A stretch of 64,000 bases of DNA from Trichocoleus desertorum NBK24. GTDB taxonomy: Bacteria > Cyanobacteriota > Cyanobacteriia > FACHB-46. Shown in pieces: positions 2,396 to 10,542 of this stretch; the first letter of the stretch is position 1, and each line of letters opens with the position of its first letter. The notes under the pieces were generated by a model, which made no database searches, was not told where the DNA came from, and was given only the letters and a program-made list of their open reading frames with translations. The stretch is taken from positions 1,707,628 to 1,771,627 of the forward strand of contig NZ_CP116619.1 in the NCBI RefSeq assembly GCF_030409055.1, in the 5' to 3' direction. The position numbers were made by a program, and so were the translations under genes.

Positions 2396-4054
2396 ATGGG
2401 TGAAATAACAGGTCCAATCAACACCGCCGAACTGTTGGTTAAATGCCTCGAAAACGAAGGTGTTCGCTACGTGTTTGGCCTCCCCGGTGAAGAAAACCTC
2501 CACATGTTGGAAGCCTTAAGCCACTCTTCGATTCAGTTCATCACCACGCGGCATGAGCAGGGCGCTGCTTTTATGGCAGATGTGTATGGTCGCTTAACGG
2601 GACAAGCGGGCGTTTGCCTTTCCACCCTCGGCCCTGGGGCCACCAACTTAATGACTGGCGTGGCCGATGCTAATTTGGATCGCGCTCCGCTAGTTGCCAT
2701 CACTGGGCAAGTGGGCACCGATCGCATGCACATTGAGTCGCACCAGTATCTCGACTTGGTGGCTATGTTTGCGCCCGTGACCAAGTGGAACGCCCAAATT
2801 GTTCGCCCTAGCAATACTCCAGAAATCGTTCGCAAAGCTTTCAAGATCGCGGAAAGTGAGAAACCGGGTGCTGTTCACATCGATCTACCAGAAAATATTG
2901 CTGCGATGACGGCCCCAGGCCAACCCCTGTCGAAGTGCTCGATGGAAAAAGTTTACGCTTCATTCCACAGCATTGAGCAAGCCGCTGCCGCCATTTCTGC
3001 CGCCAAGAATCCCATTATTCTGGTCGGGAATGGCACGATTCGAGCCCACGCGAGTGAAGCGTTAACCAAGTTTGCCACTGAACTCAATATTCCTGTGGCT
3101 AATACCTTCATGGGCAAAGGGGTGATTCCTTACACGCATCCTTTAGCTCTGTGGTCAGTGGGGTTACAACTGCGCGACTACATTAGTTGTGGATTCGATC
3201 GCGCTGATTTGGTGATTGCGATCGGTTACGACTTAATTGAGTATTCACCCAAGAAATGGAACCCCAACGGCACGATTCCAATTGTGCATATTGGACAAAC
3301 CACCGCAGAAGTTGATAGCAGTTACATGCCGATTGCTGATGTGGTCGGGGATATTTCTGACTCTCTTGAAGAAATCCTGAAGCGCTCTAACCGCCAAGGT
3401 CAACCAGAGCCTTATGCGCTCAGCTTACGAGCAGAGATCCAGGCAGACTATGAACAATACGCCAAGGATGATGCTTTTCCGATCAAGCCGCAGAAAATAG
3501 TCTACGATTTGCGGCAAATCATGGGGCCAGAGGACGTTGTGATCTCCGATGTGGGCGCACACAAAATGTGGATGGCACGTCACTACCACTGCGATCGCCC
3601 CAATACCTGCATTATCTCTAACGGGTTTGCCGCAATGGGCATTGCCATTCCAGGCGCGATCGCGGCTAAGCTCGTGCATCCAGACCGGAAGGTAGTAGCG
3701 GTGACTGGAGACGGCGGCTTTATGATGAACTGCCAAGAGCTAGAAACCGCGCTGCGAGTCGGCACTGCTTTTGTCACGATTATCTTTAATGATGGTGGCT
3801 ACGGCTTGATCGAATGGAAGCAACAAAACTATTACGGCCATTCTGCCTTTGTGAAGTTCACCAATCCTGACTTTGTCAAGCTAGCTGAAAGTATGGGCTT
3901 AAAAGGGTATCGAATTGAATCTGCAACCGATTTAATTCCAACCTTAAAAACTGCCCTAGCTCAGGATGTGCCAGCAGTAATTGATTGCCCAGTCGATTAC
4001 AGCGAAAATCTGCGCTTTACCCAAAAAGCCGGAGATCTAAGTTGTGCGATGTAG
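2396..4054 (+). CDS. ogdA: 2-oxoglutarate decarboxylase, ThDP-dependent (acetolactate synthase-like)
   Basis: A 552-residue thiamine-diphosphate enzyme with the acetolactate synthase fold: N-terminal pyrimidine-binding domain with the activating Glu in GLPGEENLHM (about residue 30), a central domain, and a C-terminal pyrophosphate domain with GDGGFMMN and the Mg/ThDP motif ending NDGGYGLI. Databases usually label such proteins acetolactate synthase. Its position one base downstream of succinic semialdehyde dehydrogenase matches the cyanobacterial 2-oxoglutarate decarboxylase operon, whose product yields succinic semialdehyde and CO2. The call therefore rests on established family knowledge plus synteny. 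A plain acetolactate synthase remains the alternative, but ilvC is far away in this window and no regulatory small subunit gene is adjacent. Confidence 0.85.
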   Translation: MGEITGPINTAELLVKCLENEGVRYVFGLPGEENLHMLEALSHSSIQFITTRHEQGAAFMADVYGRLTGQAGVCLSTLGPGATNLMTGVADANLDRAPLVAITGQVGTDRMHIESHQYLDLVAMFAPVTKWNAQIVRPSNTPEIVRKAFKIAESEKPGAVHIDLPENIAAMTAPGQPLSKCSMEKVYASFHSIEQAAAAISAAKNPIILVGNGTIRAHASEALTKFATELNIPVANTFMGKGVIPYTHPLALWSVGLQLRDYISCGFDRADLVIAIGYDLIEYSPKKWNPNGTIPIVHIGQTTAEVDSSYMPIADVVGDISDSLEEILKRSNRQGQPEPYALSLRAEIQADYEQYAKDDAFPIKPQKIVYDLRQIMGPEDVVISDVGAHKMWMARHYHCDRPNTCIISNGFAAMGIAIPGAIAAKLVHPDRKVVAVTGDGGFMMNCQELETALRVGTAFVTIIFNDGGYGLIEWKQQNYYGHSAFVKFTNPDFVKLAESMGLKGYRIESATDLIPTLKTALAQDVPAVIDCPVDYSENLRFTQKAGDLSCAM

Positions 4055-4217
4055 TCGGTGACTTTAGGGTGTTCTGGCGGCGCTGCTTTAGCTTCTGCCA
4101 GAGCATCACCACTAGCTCTTTTTCCTGGGGGGCTAGGTGCGTCATTTCGCACCCCCAGAATTTAGTCACCTCATCTTGGTTAATGTTGTCTCGCTCAGGA
4201 GCGCCACTTGTACCCAT
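4017..4217 (-). CDS. Possible small protein, 66 residues
   Basis: A reverse-strand open frame begins with ATG at 4217 and overlaps the 3' end of the convergent decarboxylase gene by 38 bases. The product is mixed-charge and plausibly globular or helical (MTHLAPQEKELVVMLWQKLK), unlike the biased composition of most shadow frames here. I recognise no family. It could equally be chance: the gene overlap is unusual and no strong ribosome site is visible. Confidence 0.35.
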   Translation of the reverse strand: MGTSGAPERDNINQDEVTKFWGCEMTHLAPQEKELVVMLWQKLKQRRQNTLKSPTTSHNLDLRLFG

Positions 4218-4689
4218 AAGTTATGCTCCGTGAAAGGCTGCGAACCGAGTCTTGAGTTGATCTCTTTGATATTTAATAAAGATTTAATTAATTTCGCTGT
4301 GCGTAGCGTCACAAATAAAAGAATTTTGTACTTTTATGTCTAAGAAATTAAAAATCAAAGGTTAACCTTGCCTTTTGCTAAGCATATTTGCTCACTAAAA
4401 GTACAGAAATAGGGTAGGAGTCAGAAGGCTGATTTGTCTTCAAAAAGATTAAATTCGTTAGTCTGCAATGCTCTTTGACCTACCTCATGCCTTGCTAATC
4501 TAGGTAAGCAATGAATGCTTAATGCTAGTGCTAAAAGTGAATTCCCAAAAAGAGGCGATCGCAAATTTCTCCCATCAAAATTAGCTCAGCCGTTTTAGGC
4601 AAATTCTTGCCCCACTTCTTAGAGATTAGGGAATTGCAGGAGTCAAATCTGAGGTAATTGGTAGCAATAAGTCATCCAAGGCTGGAACG
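4218..4689. other. AT-rich intergenic spacer
   Basis: I see no gene or RNA here. The sequence becomes AT-rich around 4255-4400. The promoter of the FHA gene pair probably lies near the right end. Confidence 0.45.
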
Positions 4690-5250
4690 ATGTATGAAAT
4701 CACATTAGCTTGGACAGAAGGGGAGCAAGCAGAAACTAAAACGCTGCATCCCTGGCAGGCCACGAAACAATCCGGAGCCATTCGCATTGGTCGCGATCCA
4801 GATCGCTGTGATTGGGTACTGGCGCATCCCACCGTTTCCGGGTTGCACGTCGAGATCATTTTTCAGCCACAGCAACACCAGTTTTATCTCCGCAATCTTC
4901 GTGCCCAGAACCCACCCTTTGTAGACGGCTCCCGCTTAGAGCAAGGGGAAGTGGTGCTGCAAGTGGGTCGCAAGATTCGGTTAGGTGAATTAGAGCTGTA
5001 CGTGACCGCGATCGCTCCCATCAAAACTACAGTACTTTTATCTCCTCAGCTTCTATCCCCACAGCTTCCTAGCCTGATTCCTACCTTCTCTGGTCCCCTA
5101 GTTCCCACTGCTCCGCCCGCTCTCTCAACCTATGGCCTTCAGTGTCCTAAGTGTCATCAGACCTCACCCTACGAGCACCTCCAGTCAGGTTGCCCTTGGT
5201 GTGGGACTTCCTTAGCAGCGGCAGCCAGTGTCATACTGTCGCCAAGATAA
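4690..5250 (+). CDS. FHA-domain protein with C-terminal zinc ribbon
   Basis: The 186-residue product has an N-terminal forkhead-associated domain (about 25-115), a phosphothreonine-binding fold, with IRIGRDPDRCDWVL and the following HPTVSGLHVEI matching the GR...S..H core. A Pro/Leu/Ser linker (about 118-148) leads to a four-cysteine zinc ribbon, CPKC then CPWCG. It therefore looks like a phospho-dependent adaptor in the cytosol. It lies 36 bases upstream of a second FHA protein fused to an FAD oxidoreductase, and the two are probably co-transcribed. No Ser/Thr kinase gene is in the window, so the phosphorylating partner is unknown. Confidence 0.8.
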   Translation: MYEITLAWTEGEQAETKTLHPWQATKQSGAIRIGRDPDRCDWVLAHPTVSGLHVEIIFQPQQHQFYLRNLRAQNPPFVDGSRLEQGEVVLQVGRKIRLGELELYVTAIAPIKTTVLLSPQLLSPQLPSLIPTFSGPLVPTAPPALSTYGLQCPKCHQTSPYEHLQSGCPWCGTSLAAAASVILSPR

Positions 5251-5286
5251 TCTCACCAACGTAACCCATAGGTTAGCAAGAGCGGT

Positions 5287-7275
5287 ATGACTGGGGCGGC
5301 ACCACTACGGATTCAATTGAGCTGGTCAGAACCTCTGACGGGGGAGCGGCGATCGCCAGTGTTGACGGTGCCGATCGCCTTAGGACGAGAATTTGCCCAG
5401 TTGCCTACTCAGCTTGGAGAACAGCGCGTCTGCCGCGTTGCCCTAGCCAGTGACGAAATTTCTCGGTTCCACGCCTTGATCACCTTAGAACCTGATGGGT
5501 TGGTGGTCACGGATCAAAACAGTATCAATGGCACGCTAGTCAATGGTGTGTTGCATCACCGCAGTTTCTTGGCGAACGGAGACACGATCCAGATTGGCCC
5601 CTACGCGATCGCTATCTCTTTCGCCGTCACTCCTCCGGCACCTGCACCTCCTCTAACTCCCCCCTCCCTGGCTGCAACTCAGCTACCTGATCCTCGTTTT
5701 GCCGTCACAGAGTTACCGAGTGCAGAAGAAGCTAATCTAGCGGATGAATCCTTTCCACCTCCTCTGTTTCAAAATCAGCAAGTCTCAGTTCAGGATTTAT
5801 TTGCGACAGGTTTGCCTGTGCGAGAAAGCGACTATGCCGCGATTGGGGCTGGATTAGGAAGCTTTTGCTGGGTCGATTTGCTCCGGATTTGTGGAGTCCA
5901 CTCGGCTCAAGTGATCGCTTTAGGCATGGAGCCCCAACCCTACGCTCGTTATCAACGGTTGTGCCGCAACTCCCAAATTCCCTTACATGAGCGGCTACGC
6001 TCCAACTCTGATTCTTGCCCGGATAACATTTGGGGTTGGCCGAGTTATGCCTTGCGTGAAGCTTGGCACGACTTAAGTAAGGGCTATCTGACAGCAGGGC
6101 TGAAATATTTGTGGCAGGTGTTTGCAGAGCCAACTTTTGCTGAAACCTATACACCGCGAGCAGCCAATCTGTTTGCAGCCCTCGATCGCGAAGCTAAACG
6201 GATCGGGTGGGAGGAGATGTTTTGCTATGGTCGAGTGCGGGGAATTCGCAAAACCAATGATGGACGGTACGCGATCGCCTATTCTCGTTCGACTTCACAG
6301 CAGCGGGACCATGCCTTTCTAGTCGCCCGCTATGTACAGCTTGCCACCGGATATCCTGCGATTCAGTTTTTGCCCGACTTGCAAGCCTATCGCGAGCAAA
6401 CCAAAGACTTTACCTCGGTCGTGAATGCTTACGAAGATCACGATCACGTTTATGAGCATTTGGAACAGCAAGGCGGCACAGTATTGATCCGGGGTCGCGG
6501 GATTGTCGCATCGCGCATTTTGCAACGGCTCTACGAAGCTCGGCAAAAAAATCCCAACATTGCAATTCTGCATTTGATGCGATCGCCCAAGCCTGAAGGC
6601 AATAAGTTCGGCACCGCCCAACGCCACGTCGAGAACCATTACGAGTTTCAACCGTTTAATTGGCCGAAAGCCTGTTGGAGCGGGGAACTAAGAGTCATGC
6701 TAGAGCAAGCTGCCCCCCAGGAACGCCAGGGTCTCTTGTCTGTTTGGGGCGGCACCACCACAGCCGACCGGGGAGATTGGCGGCGCATTGTCGAAGAGGG
6801 ACTGAGCCAAGGTTGGTATCAAATCACCTTCGGGGAAGTGGAACGAGTAGAAGCAGATGAGCGCGATCGCCCGGTAACTTACATTCAAGAACAAAATCTG
6901 AAGGGACAAATGCGACTAGAAGCAGATTTCGTCATTGATGCTACGGGTTTAGAAGCCAAAGTCAAAACGAACCCGCTCTTGGATGATTTGGTGACTCAGT
7001 ACAGTTTGCCGCTGAATCCCTTGGGTCGTTTGAGCGTGGCTAATGATTTTGAGTTGGTCGAAATGCGGAATGGTCGGGGTCGCCTGTATGCCGCAGGAGC
7101 GATGACGCTGGGGGGTCCCTATGCGGCGGTCGATAGTTTCTTGGGGTTACAATACGCGGCTCTCTGCGCTGTGACAGATTTAGCCAAAATGCGCGCTCCC
7201 AGTCTGCAACGCTTACATCCAGTGCGATCGCTGACTCAGTGGTTCAAGTGGATTTTCGGGCAACCCCCCTCTTAG
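5287..7275 (+). CDS. FHA domain fused to an FAD-dependent oxidoreductase
   Basis: A 662-residue fusion. Residues about 20-115 are an FHA domain (ALGREF, then SDEISRFHALI and NSINGTLVNG). A Pro-rich linker (about 117-180) connects to a flavin oxidoreductase-like module. That begins with a Rossmann turn in AAIGAGLGSF (about 185), has a second nucleotide-binding-like turn in VLIRGRGIVAS (about 400), a DFVIDATGLE strand (about 550) and a C-terminal YAAGAMTLGGPYAAVDSF that resembles the flavin-binding closing motif. The substrate is unknown. Phosphopeptide recognition by the FHA part may place or control the enzyme; this is inference. The FHA/zinc-ribbon gene precedes it on the same strand. Confidence 0.75.
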   Translation: MTGAAPLRIQLSWSEPLTGERRSPVLTVPIALGREFAQLPTQLGEQRVCRVALASDEISRFHALITLEPDGLVVTDQNSINGTLVNGVLHHRSFLANGDTIQIGPYAIAISFAVTPPAPAPPLTPPSLAATQLPDPRFAVTELPSAEEANLADESFPPPLFQNQQVSVQDLFATGLPVRESDYAAIGAGLGSFCWVDLLRICGVHSAQVIALGMEPQPYARYQRLCRNSQIPLHERLRSNSDSCPDNIWGWPSYALREAWHDLSKGYLTAGLKYLWQVFAEPTFAETYTPRAANLFAALDREAKRIGWEEMFCYGRVRGIRKTNDGRYAIAYSRSTSQQRDHAFLVARYVQLATGYPAIQFLPDLQAYREQTKDFTSVVNAYEDHDHVYEHLEQQGGTVLIRGRGIVASRILQRLYEARQKNPNIAILHLMRSPKPEGNKFGTAQRHVENHYEFQPFNWPKACWSGELRVMLEQAAPQERQGLLSVWGGTTTADRGDWRRIVEEGLSQGWYQITFGEVERVEADERDRPVTYIQEQNLKGQMRLEADFVIDATGLEAKVKTNPLLDDLVTQYSLPLNPLGRLSVANDFELVEMRNGRGRLYAAGAMTLGGPYAAVDSFLGLQYAALCAVTDLAKMRAPSLQRLHPVRSLTQWFKWIFGQPPS

Positions 7276-7282
7276 CCGCCAC

Positions 7283-7924
7283 CTAATTGAATAGCTCCGG
7301 AATCGAATCTTTAAGAAGGGCAATCGTGCCTTCGGCAATAAACTGCACCGCGATCGCCAAAATAAAAAATCCCAAAACCCGGTTAAAAGCGCCCACGCCA
7401 CTTTTACCTAGACGGGCCATGACGCGATCGCCCACAGAAAGGCAGAAATAGATCATGCCACCTAGCAGCAAAATCCCGATCAGAGCGCCTAAGTGATCCA
7501 TCAAATGGCTTGATCTCGCTGACAAACCCATCACTACCCCAATCGCACCCGGACCGCTCAACATCGGTACAGCCATTGGCGTAAAGGAAATATCTTCTTT
7601 TTCCGCTACTTCTTCTCGTTCTGGGGGAGTGAGCCTGGGTCGCACAGTCACCATTTCCCAAGCCGTGTGCGCGATTAGCAAGCCCCCAGCAATTCGTAAG
7701 ACTCCTAAGGAAAGATCAAAAAATTCTAAAATCAGCCTCCCAGCTAGAAAAAAGATAACCAAGACGCAGATCACATTCAACGAGGTTTTTCGAGCCTGCG
7801 CCTGACGATAAGCTTTGGAATCTAAAGCCGTTAAGCTATAGAACAAAGGAACAGCCCCAATGGGGTTGGCAATGGGGAGTAGGGCCAGAAAGGTAGCGGT
7901 GACTTCAGCTAGAAGTTGCTGCAT
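7283..7924 (-). CDS. MarC family integral membrane protein
   Basis: A 213-residue inner-membrane protein with about six hydrophobic segments. Typical MarC features are the N-terminal LLPIANPIGAVPLFYSLT, a central AGGLLIAHTAWEM and TPMAVPMLSGPGAIGVVMGL, and the C-terminal LGFFILAIAVQFIAEGT. The start at 7924 gives the usual family length. MarC proteins were once linked to multidrug resistance, but that link was withdrawn and the function is unsettled. The gene converges with the FHA-FAD fusion, with only 7 bases between stop codons, so the two transcripts may interfere. Confidence 0.9.
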   Translation of the reverse strand: MQQLLAEVTATFLALLPIANPIGAVPLFYSLTALDSKAYRQAQARKTSLNVICVLVIFFLAGRLILEFFDLSLGVLRIAGGLLIAHTAWEMVTVRPRLTPPEREEVAEKEDISFTPMAVPMLSGPGAIGVVMGLSARSSHLMDHLGALIGILLLGGMIYFCLSVGDRVMARLGKSGVGAFNRVLGFFILAIAVQFIAEGTIALLKDSIPELFN

Positions 7925-8037
7925 GAAACTCGATAGGCTCAGCCATAGCAGATTAGATTCAACAGTTCTGTAATATCCTTTACCTACTAGTTTTTCATCA
8001 ATCTAGTGACTGAGGTCGTGAAGTCTAGGGTAAAAGC

Positions 8038-8466
8038 ATGACACCCACCTTGTTTGGGCGCTGGCAAACTCGTTTATTCCTCTTCGCTACAGTTGGCGTC
8101 GTGGTGACGCTGCCCTTTGCTCTTGGTTATATCGGCCCTGGTGCCAGTGCTCAGTTTTTCTGGGTGCTATTCTATGTGGCGCTGTTTGGCCTAGGCTGGG
8201 ATGTCCTTTATACCTACTTACAGAAATTTCGTTGGGATCGTGATTGGCCTGGAGCTTTGCAACTTTTGGCAGGGCTGTGGGAAGCAGTATTTATTGTGTT
8301 GCTGCTAAAAACGGTGGGTCTCTTTGGCATTGATCGAAACCTATCCATGTCGGGCTTCTTGTGGCACTACAGTTCGATCTGGCTGGCAATTTATTTAGCT
8401 GCTCACAGTTTGATGCGAATTCTGTTTCCGCGATCGCGCTTCCGGGGCGGACAATGGCTGTTCTAA
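8038..8466 (+). CDS. Conserved four-helix membrane protein, unknown function
   Basis: The 142-residue product has four likely transmembrane segments (about 13-32, 40-62, 80-100 and 112-130) with a short cytoplasmic-looking loop QKFRWDRDWPG between the second and third. The C-terminus is basic (PRSRFRGGQWLF). I recognise no characterised family, although proteins of this size and pattern are common in cyanobacteria. It lies 65 bases before a DUF4332 gene on the same strand, and could share its transcript. Confidence 0.65.
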   Translation: MTPTLFGRWQTRLFLFATVGVVVTLPFALGYIGPGASAQFFWVLFYVALFGLGWDVLYTYLQKFRWDRDWPGALQLLAGLWEAVFIVLLLKTVGLFGIDRNLSMSGFLWHYSSIWLAIYLAAHSLMRILFPRSRFRGGQWLF

Positions 8467-8530
8467 GCCCCATTCCAAGCAGATCTAGACAACATGCGCC
8501 ACAATAGGATTCTCTGTTAGTGATACGACT

Positions 8531-9013
8531 ATGCGTACGCGCGATCGCCATCGTTCTGGGTCTCGGCCCCAACCGTTACGGCCCTGTAGCTGGCCCATTG
8601 AACAACTGCCAGGTCTGAGCCAGGAAGACCAAACTCGCTTACAGGCACACGGTATTCACACCACCCAACAGCTATTGCAGCAAGCCGCTACACCAGCTCA
8701 GAAACAGCACCTAGCGGCTCAATTACAAATCCATATTCAGCATGTGAATAAATGGGTGGCCTTGGCTGATCTAGCGAAGATTCCCAGTGTGGGGTGTCAG
8801 TACTGCGGTCTGCTCCTACATGCGGGAGTGGCTTCTTGCGCTCAACTAGCCCAAACCCCTTTGCATCGACTGCACCCCCAAATTATGCGGTTGCAAGTTG
8901 CCATGATGCAGCGACCAGACTTGTGCCCTCCTGTGGAAGCAGTGGCGATCTGGATGCAACAGGCGCGATCGCTCACAGCTAGTTCTATGCTGAAAGCAAC
9001 CGAATCTAAATAG
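8531..9013 (+). CDS. DUF4332 (helix-hairpin-helix-like) protein
   Basis: The 160-residue product resembles DUF4332 proteins, which carry helix-hairpin-helix-like repeats. The first repeat reads IEQLPGLSQEDQTRLQAHGI followed by TTQQLL (about 23-48). The second contains DLAKIPSVGCQYCGLLLHAG and CAQLAQTPLHRL (about 83-118). Such repeats usually bind nucleic acid or another protein, but no function is proved. The gene ends 10 bases before aroE, so it probably belongs to the same transcript. Confidence 0.7.
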   Translation: MRTRDRHRSGSRPQPLRPCSWPIEQLPGLSQEDQTRLQAHGIHTTQQLLQQAATPAQKQHLAAQLQIHIQHVNKWVALADLAKIPSVGCQYCGLLLHAGVASCAQLAQTPLHRLHPQIMRLQVAMMQRPDLCPPVEAVAIWMQQARSLTASSMLKATESK

Positions 9014-9023
9014 CTAGCAGTGA

Positions 9024-9890
9024 ATGAAGTTGATTACAGGTACAACTAGACTTTTGGGTGTGATTGGAGCCCCGATCAAGCATTCTCTCTCACCCGTGAT
9101 GCACAATGCCGCGATCGCCTCACTAGGGCTGGATTACGTTTATGTGCCTCTGCCCGTAGCGCCATCCGATTTAGCCACCGCGATCGCTGGATTTGCTGCC
9201 ATTGACCTACGCGGATTTAGCATCACGATTCCCCACAAGCAAGCCATCATTCCTCTGTTAAATCACGTGTCGGACGTGGCTCAGGCGATTGGGGCTGTAA
9301 ACACGGTTTGGCGCACGGAGCAGGGTTGGAGTGGCACCAATACAGATGTGATTGGTTTTCTCGCCCCCCTCAAAACCTACGATCGCGATTGGAGCCAAAC
9401 GACAGCGGTAATTTTAGGCAATGGTGGAGCGGCGCGGGCAGTTGTGGCGGGCTGTGCTCAGTTGGGTTGTACGGCGGTGAAAGTAGTAGGGCGCGATCGC
9501 CAAAAGTTAGCGGCGTTTCAACAAAGCTGGGTTGATTCACCGATTCCGGTGGAGCTTTCGATTCACACCTGGGAGGAGTTGCCGAGTCTGCTGCCTGACG
9601 CGGGTTTGATTGTGAACAGTACACCGATCGGGATGCACCCCAATGATGAAGCGTCACCGTTAGAAGATGCGATCGCAACTCAAATTGCGGCAGGAGCGAT
9701 CGCTTATGACTTGATCTATACGCCGAGTCCTACGCGGTTTTTACGGCAGGCTCAACAGCAAGGAGCGATCGCGATCAATGGATTGGAGATGTTGGTGCAG
9801 CAAGGAGCAGCGGCGCTAGAGATTTGGGTGGGGCAGACGGCTCCGGTGGAGGTGATGCGGCAGGCTTTGCGGGATTATCTGGGCTTGTAG
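9024..9890 (+). CDS. aroE: Shikimate 5-dehydrogenase
   Basis: A 288-residue NADPH enzyme of the shikimate pathway that reduces 3-dehydroshikimate to shikimate on the way to aromatic amino acids. Key signatures are IKHSLSPVMHNAA (shikimate-binding serines), the catalytic Lys in TIPHKQ, the NADP-binding loop GNGGAARAVV, NSTPIGM, and the closing GLEMLVQQGAAALEIW. The length is usual for AroE. It follows the DUF4332 gene by 10 bases. Nothing is odd in the sequence except several HIP1 octamers inside the gene. Confidence 0.95.
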   Translation: MKLITGTTRLLGVIGAPIKHSLSPVMHNAAIASLGLDYVYVPLPVAPSDLATAIAGFAAIDLRGFSITIPHKQAIIPLLNHVSDVAQAIGAVNTVWRTEQGWSGTNTDVIGFLAPLKTYDRDWSQTTAVILGNGGAARAVVAGCAQLGCTAVKVVGRDRQKLAAFQQSWVDSPIPVELSIHTWEELPSLLPDAGLIVNSTPIGMHPNDEASPLEDAIATQIAAGAIAYDLIYTPSPTRFLRQAQQQGAIAINGLEMLVQQGAAALEIWVGQTAPVEVMRQALRDYLGL

Positions 9891-9909: not shown

Positions 9910-10542
9910 TCATGTACTAGGCCAGCGCCAGTTGTAGCGGTTCCAGCGGTAGATGCCTTGGATTTCGTATTCCATGCCACTATCAAAGCGGATGAGGCAA
10001 CTGGTGTAGGCTTGGCCGTTGTCGGCTTTTTCGGTGACCCCAATGACGGTGCAAGAGAACCATTCGGGAGCGCAAGGGCCTTCTTCTTGAACCCATTCCC
10101 AGAGGCTATTGCAAACTTCAATGCGATCGCCTACTTTGACTTTTAAGGTTTCGCGATTATCTAGCTCAGCGTAGGCTGCAACGTGCCTAGGTTGGACTCG
10201 ATTGAGCCACTGCGGGCCGTACAACTCTCGGATAAATTGCATCGAGGCGGAGTCCCGATTGTGTAACCAATCGTTGAGCAGCTTAATTTTCCAGGGATGG
10301 TTTTGTTGCTCTTGCTCTTTGACAAATTTGAGCAAAGTGTGTCGTTGTTCAGCGGTCAGTTCGTCCAGCGGATTCTCGGTTTCGTGATTGCCATCCGCAT
10401 CATTGCTCCGCCGCTGCAAACGCTCTAATTCCACTACCATGCTCAGCAGAATTTGCTTTTGTTGCTCATTGAGCGGATAGTCGGCAGCATCACATCGTCT
10501 AAATGCTGCTTGTAAGACCGCTTCAATCTCAGCTTTGGTCAT
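9910..10542 (-). CDS. Conserved hypothetical protein with SH3-like C-terminus
   Basis: I do not recognise a named family. The 210-residue product has an N-terminal helical region (about 1-55), a charged middle containing ELTAEQRHTLLKFVKEQEQQ, and a C-terminal beta-rich part (about 130-205) beginning VKVGDRIEVCNSLWEWV. It ends with RFDSGMEYEIQGIYRWNRY, which resembles a small SH3-like or Tudor-like barrel. No signal peptide or membrane segment is seen, so it is probably cytosolic. It converges with aroE with 19 bases between stops. Confidence 0.65.
   Translation of the reverse strand: MTKAEIEAVLQAAFRRCDAADYPLNEQQKQILLSMVVELERLQRRSNDADGNHETENPLDELTAEQRHTLLKFVKEQEQQNHPWKIKLLNDWLHNRDSASMQFIRELYGPQWLNRVQPRHVAAYAELDNRETLKVKVGDRIEVCNSLWEWVQEEGPCAPEWFSCTVIGVTEKADNGQAYTSCLIRFDSGMEYEIQGIYRWNRYNWRWPST

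Follow-up and report, generated by a model that had tools for sequence, protein, structure and literature searches.

The analysed stretch, hereafter the window, comprises 64,000 nucleotides of the Trichocoleus desertorum NBK24 genome (NZ_CP116619.1, positions 1,707,628 to 1,771,627), and two genes encoding forkhead-associated (FHA) domains stand in tandem at its positions 4690-7275. An earlier note on this DNA had described the first product as an FHA domain joined to a zinc ribbon and the second as an FHA domain fused to a flavin adenine dinucleotide (FAD) oxidoreductase. Open reading frames (ORFs) with exactly the ends given there lie 36 bp apart on the same strand, and both products match the FHA family PF00498 above its cut-off. 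Both fusions were upheld, but the two-gene picture proved incomplete: the tightest partner of gene 2 is a membrane protein encoded outside these positions by gene 3, which starts 762 bp downstream of gene 2 (Table 1).

Table 1. Features of the FHA gene pair and its surroundings (window positions; aa, amino acid residues)
Feature	Position	Strand	Basis
Gene 1: FHA domain 1, linker and C-terminal CxxC-x12-CxxC ribbon, 186 aa	4690..5250	+	ORF; PF00498 above cut-off
FHA domain 1, aa 31-99	4780..4986	+	PF00498 E 3.3e-14; core residues
Putative zinc ribbon C152, C155, C168, C171	5143..5202	+	Cysteine conservation
Gene 2: FHA domain 2, linker and flavin-oxidoreductase-like domain, 662 aa	5287..7275	+	ORF; relatives
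FHA domain 2, aa 8-112 in model, Pfam match aa 43-104	5308..5622	+	PF00498 E 3.4e-12
Conserved threonine motif T131-Q-L-P-D-P in disordered linker	5677..5694	+	Motif counts versus shuffles
Flavin-monooxygenase-like domain (predicted), aa 178-640	5818..7206	+	Model, Foldseek, VIA-align, motif counts
Motifs in this domain: GxGxG 187-191, GxGIVAS 403-409, ATG-like 552-555
MarC gene, between genes 2 and 3	7283-7924	opposite
Gene 3: four-helix membrane protein, 142 aa	8038..8466	+	Co-occurrence; model

To describe conservation, relatives of gene 2 were counted as 125 distinct loci, obtained from 130 by collapsing five repeats (loci with identical last 400 residues), and 112 distinct FHA-ribbon sequences were left from 117 rows, the window being included in both sets; one further FHA-ribbon gene (L078), found by profile, is counted as adjacent and lies outside the 112. 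FHA domains 1 and 2 score 53.5 and 47.1 bits against a Pfam cut-off of 20.7 bits, and the window genome contains 18 FHA matches in total. The phosphothreonine-binding core of FHA domains consists of GR, SxxH and NG. In FHA domain 2 this core is kept, with G33, R34, H62 and N86 present in 125/125 relatives, S59 and N81 in 124, and G82 in 123. In FHA domain 1, G34, R35, S50 and N74 are present in all 112 sequences and H53 in 111, but N-P replaces the usual N-G, with P75 in 112/112. Because N-P stands where N-G is usual, the ligand preference of this domain may differ from the usual one.

The ribbon cysteines of gene 1 are comparably conserved: C152 and C168 occur in 112/112 sequences, C171 in 111 and C155 in 108, and a stricter ribbon spacing pattern fits 105 of the 117 rows, five of the rows being repeats. 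No Pfam ribbon family scored above its cut-off here (DUF7560 reached 19.7 bits, against a cut-off of 27), and the C-terminus is described as a putative zinc ribbon with two conserved CxxC pairs, in agreement with the FHA-ribbon arrangement first proposed.

The large domain of gene 2 was characterised by its predicted structure. For residues 156-662, searches of Pfam, NCBIfam and PHROGs gave no family above cut-off, and no PDB sequence matched. An AlphaFold2 model built from 65 sequences, with a mean predicted local distance difference test (pLDDT) score of 79, comprises the FHA part as a beta-strand domain (block pLDDT mostly at least 90), a disordered linker (residues 115-153, pLDDT <50) and then the large domain. 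The top Foldseek match of the model was SidA ornithine hydroxylase (E 5e-16), with 391 chains at E ≤ 0.001. VIA-align placed YpdA at top rank (Z 24.3 over 312 residues) and listed PvdA (Z 23.2, 382 aligned of 410, 3.3 Å), KtzI (Z 22.4) and DfoA (Z 22.0) among its best rows, with thioredoxin reductases also listed. Neither of the two outcomes that the earlier note had named as refuting, a missing FAD-binding fold or missing FHA core residues, was seen. After the linker, the model contains a fold with two dinucleotide-binding domains, as in enzymes using FAD and reduced nicotinamide adenine dinucleotide (phosphate) (NAD(P)H), whose matches span about residues 177-645. Since other flavoenzymes fall within a few Z units of PvdA, the model comparison indicates this flavoprotein class and not a family within it.

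Motif conservation agrees with the predicted fold. The glycines G187, G189 and G191, together with G403, G405, A408 and S409, are present in 125/125 loci, and T553 and G554 of the ATG-like motif in 124. We infer from the model that the gene-2 protein binds FAD and NAD(P)H; the label of FAD oxidoreductase in the earlier note stands as regards a flavoprotein-like fold and motifs, and it is on these that the label rests. PvdA, SidA, KtzI and DfoA, which belong to PF13434, share with gene 2 the fold and the order of the two dinucleotide-binding parts. In contrast to these enzymes, gene 2 lies below the family cut-off, shows 10-16% identity to them in structural alignments, includes an FHA domain and has a membrane protein as a co-occurring partner. 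In the Pfam test, 2 of 18 members matched PF13434 at E ≤ 10 (best E 0.18) and the window protein gave no match, while hhalign against four cyanobacterial PF13434 proteins produced a collinear alignment of 353 columns at E 9e-4 with a probability of only 23%. Because the PF13434 cut-off is missed, we describe the domain as flavin-monooxygenase-like by predicted fold, outside PF13434.

The fusion recurs widely. A profile search allowing E up to 0.01 found the oxidoreductase domain in 47 of 292 cyanobacterial genomes (50 matches, the weakest at 657 bits); the 292-genome draws of separate searches are treated as one set, as counts and handles suggest. The FHA domain is fused to it in 125/125 distinct cyanobacterial loci. 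Because the domain recurs in 47 of the 292 genomes, the fusion, as judged from sequence, is not a chance one. Among the best 80 of 300 named relatives of gene 2, all are cyanobacterial by title. The FHA-ribbon gene lies upstream on the same strand within 2.5 kb in 112 of the 125 loci, separated from gene 2 by a median of 80 bp. The 13 loci without an adjacent copy comprise two at a contig end, one (L102) with the gene about 5 kb upstream, one (L132) with none, and nine that form one clade.

Clustering of the neighbourhoods revealed the 142-residue product of gene 3 as a frequent downstream neighbour. It lies downstream of gene 2 on the same strand within 3 kb in 73/125 loci and within 250 bp in 33, five of which overlap by longest ORF. 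At the genome level, gene 3 is present in 46 of the 292 genomes; each of these also carries the oxidoreductase, which leaves one of the 47 carriers without gene 3, and the 245 genomes that lack the oxidoreductase lack gene 3 as well (hypergeometric 4e-53, a value that is no true probability, as the genomes are not independent). The association holds even where the two genes lie far apart, for example in G125, G167 and G068, and where a genome has a second oxidoreductase, as in G174, G255 and G284, it also has a second membrane protein. Genes 2 and 3 also change together in the listed cases within families that hold both states: f2 includes G118 with them and G002 and G066 without, and f21 includes G123 with and G111 without.

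Endonuclease V served as a control for shared neighbourhood. Its gene precedes the cassette on the same strand in 85/125 loci (for example L089:7584-8243), but of the 76 genomes that have it, 39 carry the oxidoreductase and 37 do not, and it is missing from 8 of the 47. Endonuclease V was rejected as a partner, as its genome distribution does not track the oxidoreductase. Judged by this control, a shared neighbourhood alone gives a far looser co-occurrence than that seen between gene 2 and the membrane protein. The membrane partner is a more telling finding than the fusion itself. In the window genome endonuclease V sits elsewhere (G000:C1:1832670-1833251), and its match is interrupted by stops in G087 and G284.

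Gene 3 belongs to no known family. The model contains helices at residues 5-28, 39-63, 71-92 and 104-129, searches with it found no similar solved fold (best Foldseek E 6.1, VIA Z 4.3), and the window protein has no Pfam match at E ≤ 1. Among the 44 of 46 membrane-protein sequences that were aligned, 24 match DUF3267 at E ≤ 1 (best E 7.7e-5). Six of ten rescanned members, which do not include the one with the best E value, match it at 14.0-15.4 bits against a cut-off of 27.1. HExxH is the zincin motif; assignment of gene 3 as a DUF3267 putative zincin peptidase was rejected, the rescanned members being below cut-off and HExxH being present in 0/44. UbiA was rejected as well, with weak matches below cut-off in the ten rescanned members. 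A cytochrome-b-like role is unlikely from the alignment, because no histidine is invariant over the 44 sequences. The charged residues R8, R12, D55 and R134 are invariant, and R65, D67, D69, E82 and R127 are present in at least 90%. The positive-inside rule predicts the cytoplasmic ends of membrane helices; by this rule the conserved charges would lie mostly at presumed cytoplasmic ends, the side on which the FHA enzyme would also be found.

Searches beyond cyanobacteria covered plasmid and phage collections. Gene 2 had no match among phage records at E 0.001. One strong match (E 4e-94) came from the plasmid collection, in the actinomycete Nonomuraea gerenzanensis; the three remaining plasmid matches had E values of 2 to 8. 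The Nonomuraea ORF of 505 residues is 39% identical over 493, begins where the oxidoreductase part of gene 2 begins, and has no FHA domain; from the stop codon of this ORF onward, the sequence is homologous to the membrane protein (40% over 139 residues). Because this FHA-less homologue adjoins a relative of the membrane protein, the comparison suggests that oxidoreductase and membrane protein form the core of the system, to which the FHA domain and the FHA-ribbon gene would have been added in cyanobacteria; the FHA domain may instead have been lost in Nonomuraea. An alignment of 18 of the 50 oxidoreductase-domain sequences was extended by Nonomuraea to 19 rows, and a further alignment held 65 of 81 sequences. 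Over the 19 rows, which reach down to 39% identity and span two phyla, 91 columns are invariant, many of them in loops such as R-x-RS-x-S-x3-PDN-x-WG-x-P-x-Y.

Two side observations concern these relatives. The Nonomuraea record (L175, NZ_LT559118.1) is filed in PLSDB as a plasmid and has 10 annotated features; its size of 11.85 Mb suggests that it is a chromosome. In G255, the second copy (L054:5521-7728, minus strand) is a single 735-residue ORF that joins the FHA domain, a C-terminally shortened oxidoreductase and the whole membrane protein, and this fused copy may be decaying.

The regions that follow the FHA domains carry conserved threonines. In the 125 loci the linker region after FHA domain 2 is 34 to 74 residues long; FNPxT occurs in 91 of these linkers, against a shuffled mean of 0.54, and TxLPD[PA] in 60, against 0.07, with many relatives carrying FNPxT-x-LPDP. 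After FHA domain 1, threonine T114 is kept in 100 of the 112 sequences. In GarA and OdhI, a threonine beside the FHA domain is phosphorylated and then bound by that domain. By analogy, we propose that the linker threonine motifs may, when phosphorylated, be bound by one of the two FHA domains.

Kinase genes, which the earlier note had suggested looking for as neighbours, are not regular near the cassette: 14 kinase motif hits were found around the 130 loci, repeats included, and the five of these scanned with Pfam are all kinases. At L038, L039 and L101 a gene of the kinase cluster follows gene 3 on the same strand, and these loci form a four-member clade with L151. Because the three share one clade, the linkage amounts to about one event, and we claim no enrichment. 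Serine/threonine (Ser/Thr) kinases follow the membrane-protein gene at L038:8122-9738 and L101:11985-13970, and this clade possibly holds a reader-enzyme-kinase operon.

Taken together, we consider it rather probable that genes 2 and 3 form a membrane-acting NAD(P)H flavoenzyme unit, which in cyanobacteria is FHA-gated by threonine phosphorylation. Genes 2 and 3 would be an old two-part unit, in which the product of gene 2 is a flavoenzyme that depends on NAD(P)H and is folded like flavin monooxygenases and ornithine N-hydroxylases. This enzyme would act at the cytoplasmic membrane face together with the gene 3 product, which may anchor it or give a membrane-soluble substrate or electron acceptor access to the flavin. 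The N-terminal FHA domain and, in most loci, the upstream FHA-ribbon protein of cyanobacteria would subject the enzyme to control by Ser/Thr kinases. An FHA domain would bind a phosphothreonine, perhaps that of the conserved threonine motif following each FHA domain, and this binding would change the assembly, place or activity of the enzyme. Both the action at the membrane and the phospho-control are steps that we infer. A more far-reaching version is offered tentatively, as a doubtful possibility: a three-part signalling-redox system in which a flavoenzyme of a new family, gated by phosphothreonine, is bound to an orphan four-helix membrane protein, the FHA domains read each other's linker threonines, and a kinase switches NAD(P)H chemistry at the membrane.

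Several observations weigh against the membrane-acting, FHA-gated flavoenzyme. On the side of the partners, in 52 of the 125 loci gene 3 is not found on the same strand in the 3 kb that follow gene 2, in some owing to a contig end, and one genome with the oxidoreductase (G278, a draft of 170 contigs) has no gene 3 even at E ≤ 1. The FHA-ribbon protein tracks the oxidoreductase more loosely, with matches in 40 of the 47 genomes plus weak ones in three others (43/292, E 1e-8), and the clade of nine oxidoreductases lacking an FHA-ribbon gene alongside has support 1.0. The FHA-less state is known from one outside genome, that of Nonomuraea. On the side of phospho-control, few kinase genes lie near the cassette, the window linker has T-Q-L-P-D-P only, which is the rarer of the two motif forms, and the use of the threonine motifs as FHA ligands is deduced by analogy. 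On the side of the enzyme, no sequence family above cut-off names the domain a flavoprotein. FAD-binding folds usually combine GxGxxG with an acidic residue after strand 2. This acidic residue is not kept in gene 2: among the 125 loci, position 213 holds G (113 loci), S (10) or A (2), and 105 loci have E at position 215. Model confidence is low (pLDDT <50) in several of the loops that are conserved best (residues 231-241 and 283-290, and parts of 438-465 and 488-494).

Gene 2 could instead encode a soluble small-molecule N-hydroxylase for lysine, ornithine or a diamine that belongs to a siderophore or natural-product pathway; the FHA domain would then regulate it and the membrane protein would act as an exporter. 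The best Foldseek matches are N-hydroxylating monooxygenases, which also stand high in VIA-align, and the weak collinear profile match covers the QxP...YALRE region and the ATG motif. This reading is nevertheless unlikely: PF13434 was not reached in the Pfam test, and a four-helix protein of 142 residues would be a small exporter. Moreover, each of the four cyanobacterial full-length PF13434 proteins inspected adjoins a gene of about 400 residues that looks, by eye, like a major facilitator superfamily (MFS) transporter, and no MFS-like gene recurs among the listed neighbour clusters of gene 2, as far as names were checked.

It is decidedly unlikely that the flavoprotein fold is catalytically dead and serves as a scaffold or an NAD(P)H or redox sensor, recruited by its FHA domain to phosphorylated partners and signalling via the membrane protein. 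The unusual residue after strand 2, the lack of an above-cut-off sequence family and the nature of FHA and ribbon as interaction domains would fit such a role, but the 91 invariant columns, with many in loops, are what an active site would show. A thiol-disulfide reductase of the thioredoxin-reductase or YpdA type, enzymes with conserved redox-active cysteine(s), is highly improbable: YpdA and thioredoxin reductases appear among the VIA-align matches and C244 is present in 125/125 cyanobacterial members, but C244 is not kept in Nonomuraea (SDSGARPDN), no cysteine is invariant over the 19-row alignment, and the aligned length for YpdA is shorter than that for PvdA.

Among FHA proteins, FraH of Anabaena, an FHA plus zinc-ribbon protein of a cyanobacterium, shares this combination with gene 1 but has its ribbon at the opposite end. 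GarA and OdhI, the oxoglutarate dehydrogenase inhibitor, are separate proteins that bind their enzymes. Both resemble FHA domain 2 in sequence, with the OdhI family model below its cut-off. In contrast to them, the FHA domain of gene 2 is fused to an enzyme-like domain in all 125 loci. A theme common to both regulators and gene 2 would be phosphothreonine control of redox metabolism. A published account links GarA to the tricarboxylic acid cycle (PMC5448819).

Elsewhere in the window, a 210-residue ORF at 9910-10542 (minus strand) has no Pfam match at E ≤ 0.001. Across the gene cluster itself (4000-9100), promoter and terminator scans gave no more signals than shuffled sequences.

No description of an FHA-oxidoreductase fusion was found in the literature searched. 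The FHA-oxidoreductase-membrane protein system is real, conserved and cyanobacterial, is built on a known fold type, and is undescribed as far as these searches show. Steering of redox metabolism by bacterial FHA domains is known from separate regulators (GarA, OdhI), whereas here the reader is built into the enzyme-like protein. Genes 2 and 3 constitute a defined orphan pair and an entry to asking what cyanobacterial Ser/Thr kinases control. If the reading of a membrane-acting, FHA-gated flavoenzyme is true, these cyanobacteria would possess a redox device switchable by cell signalling.

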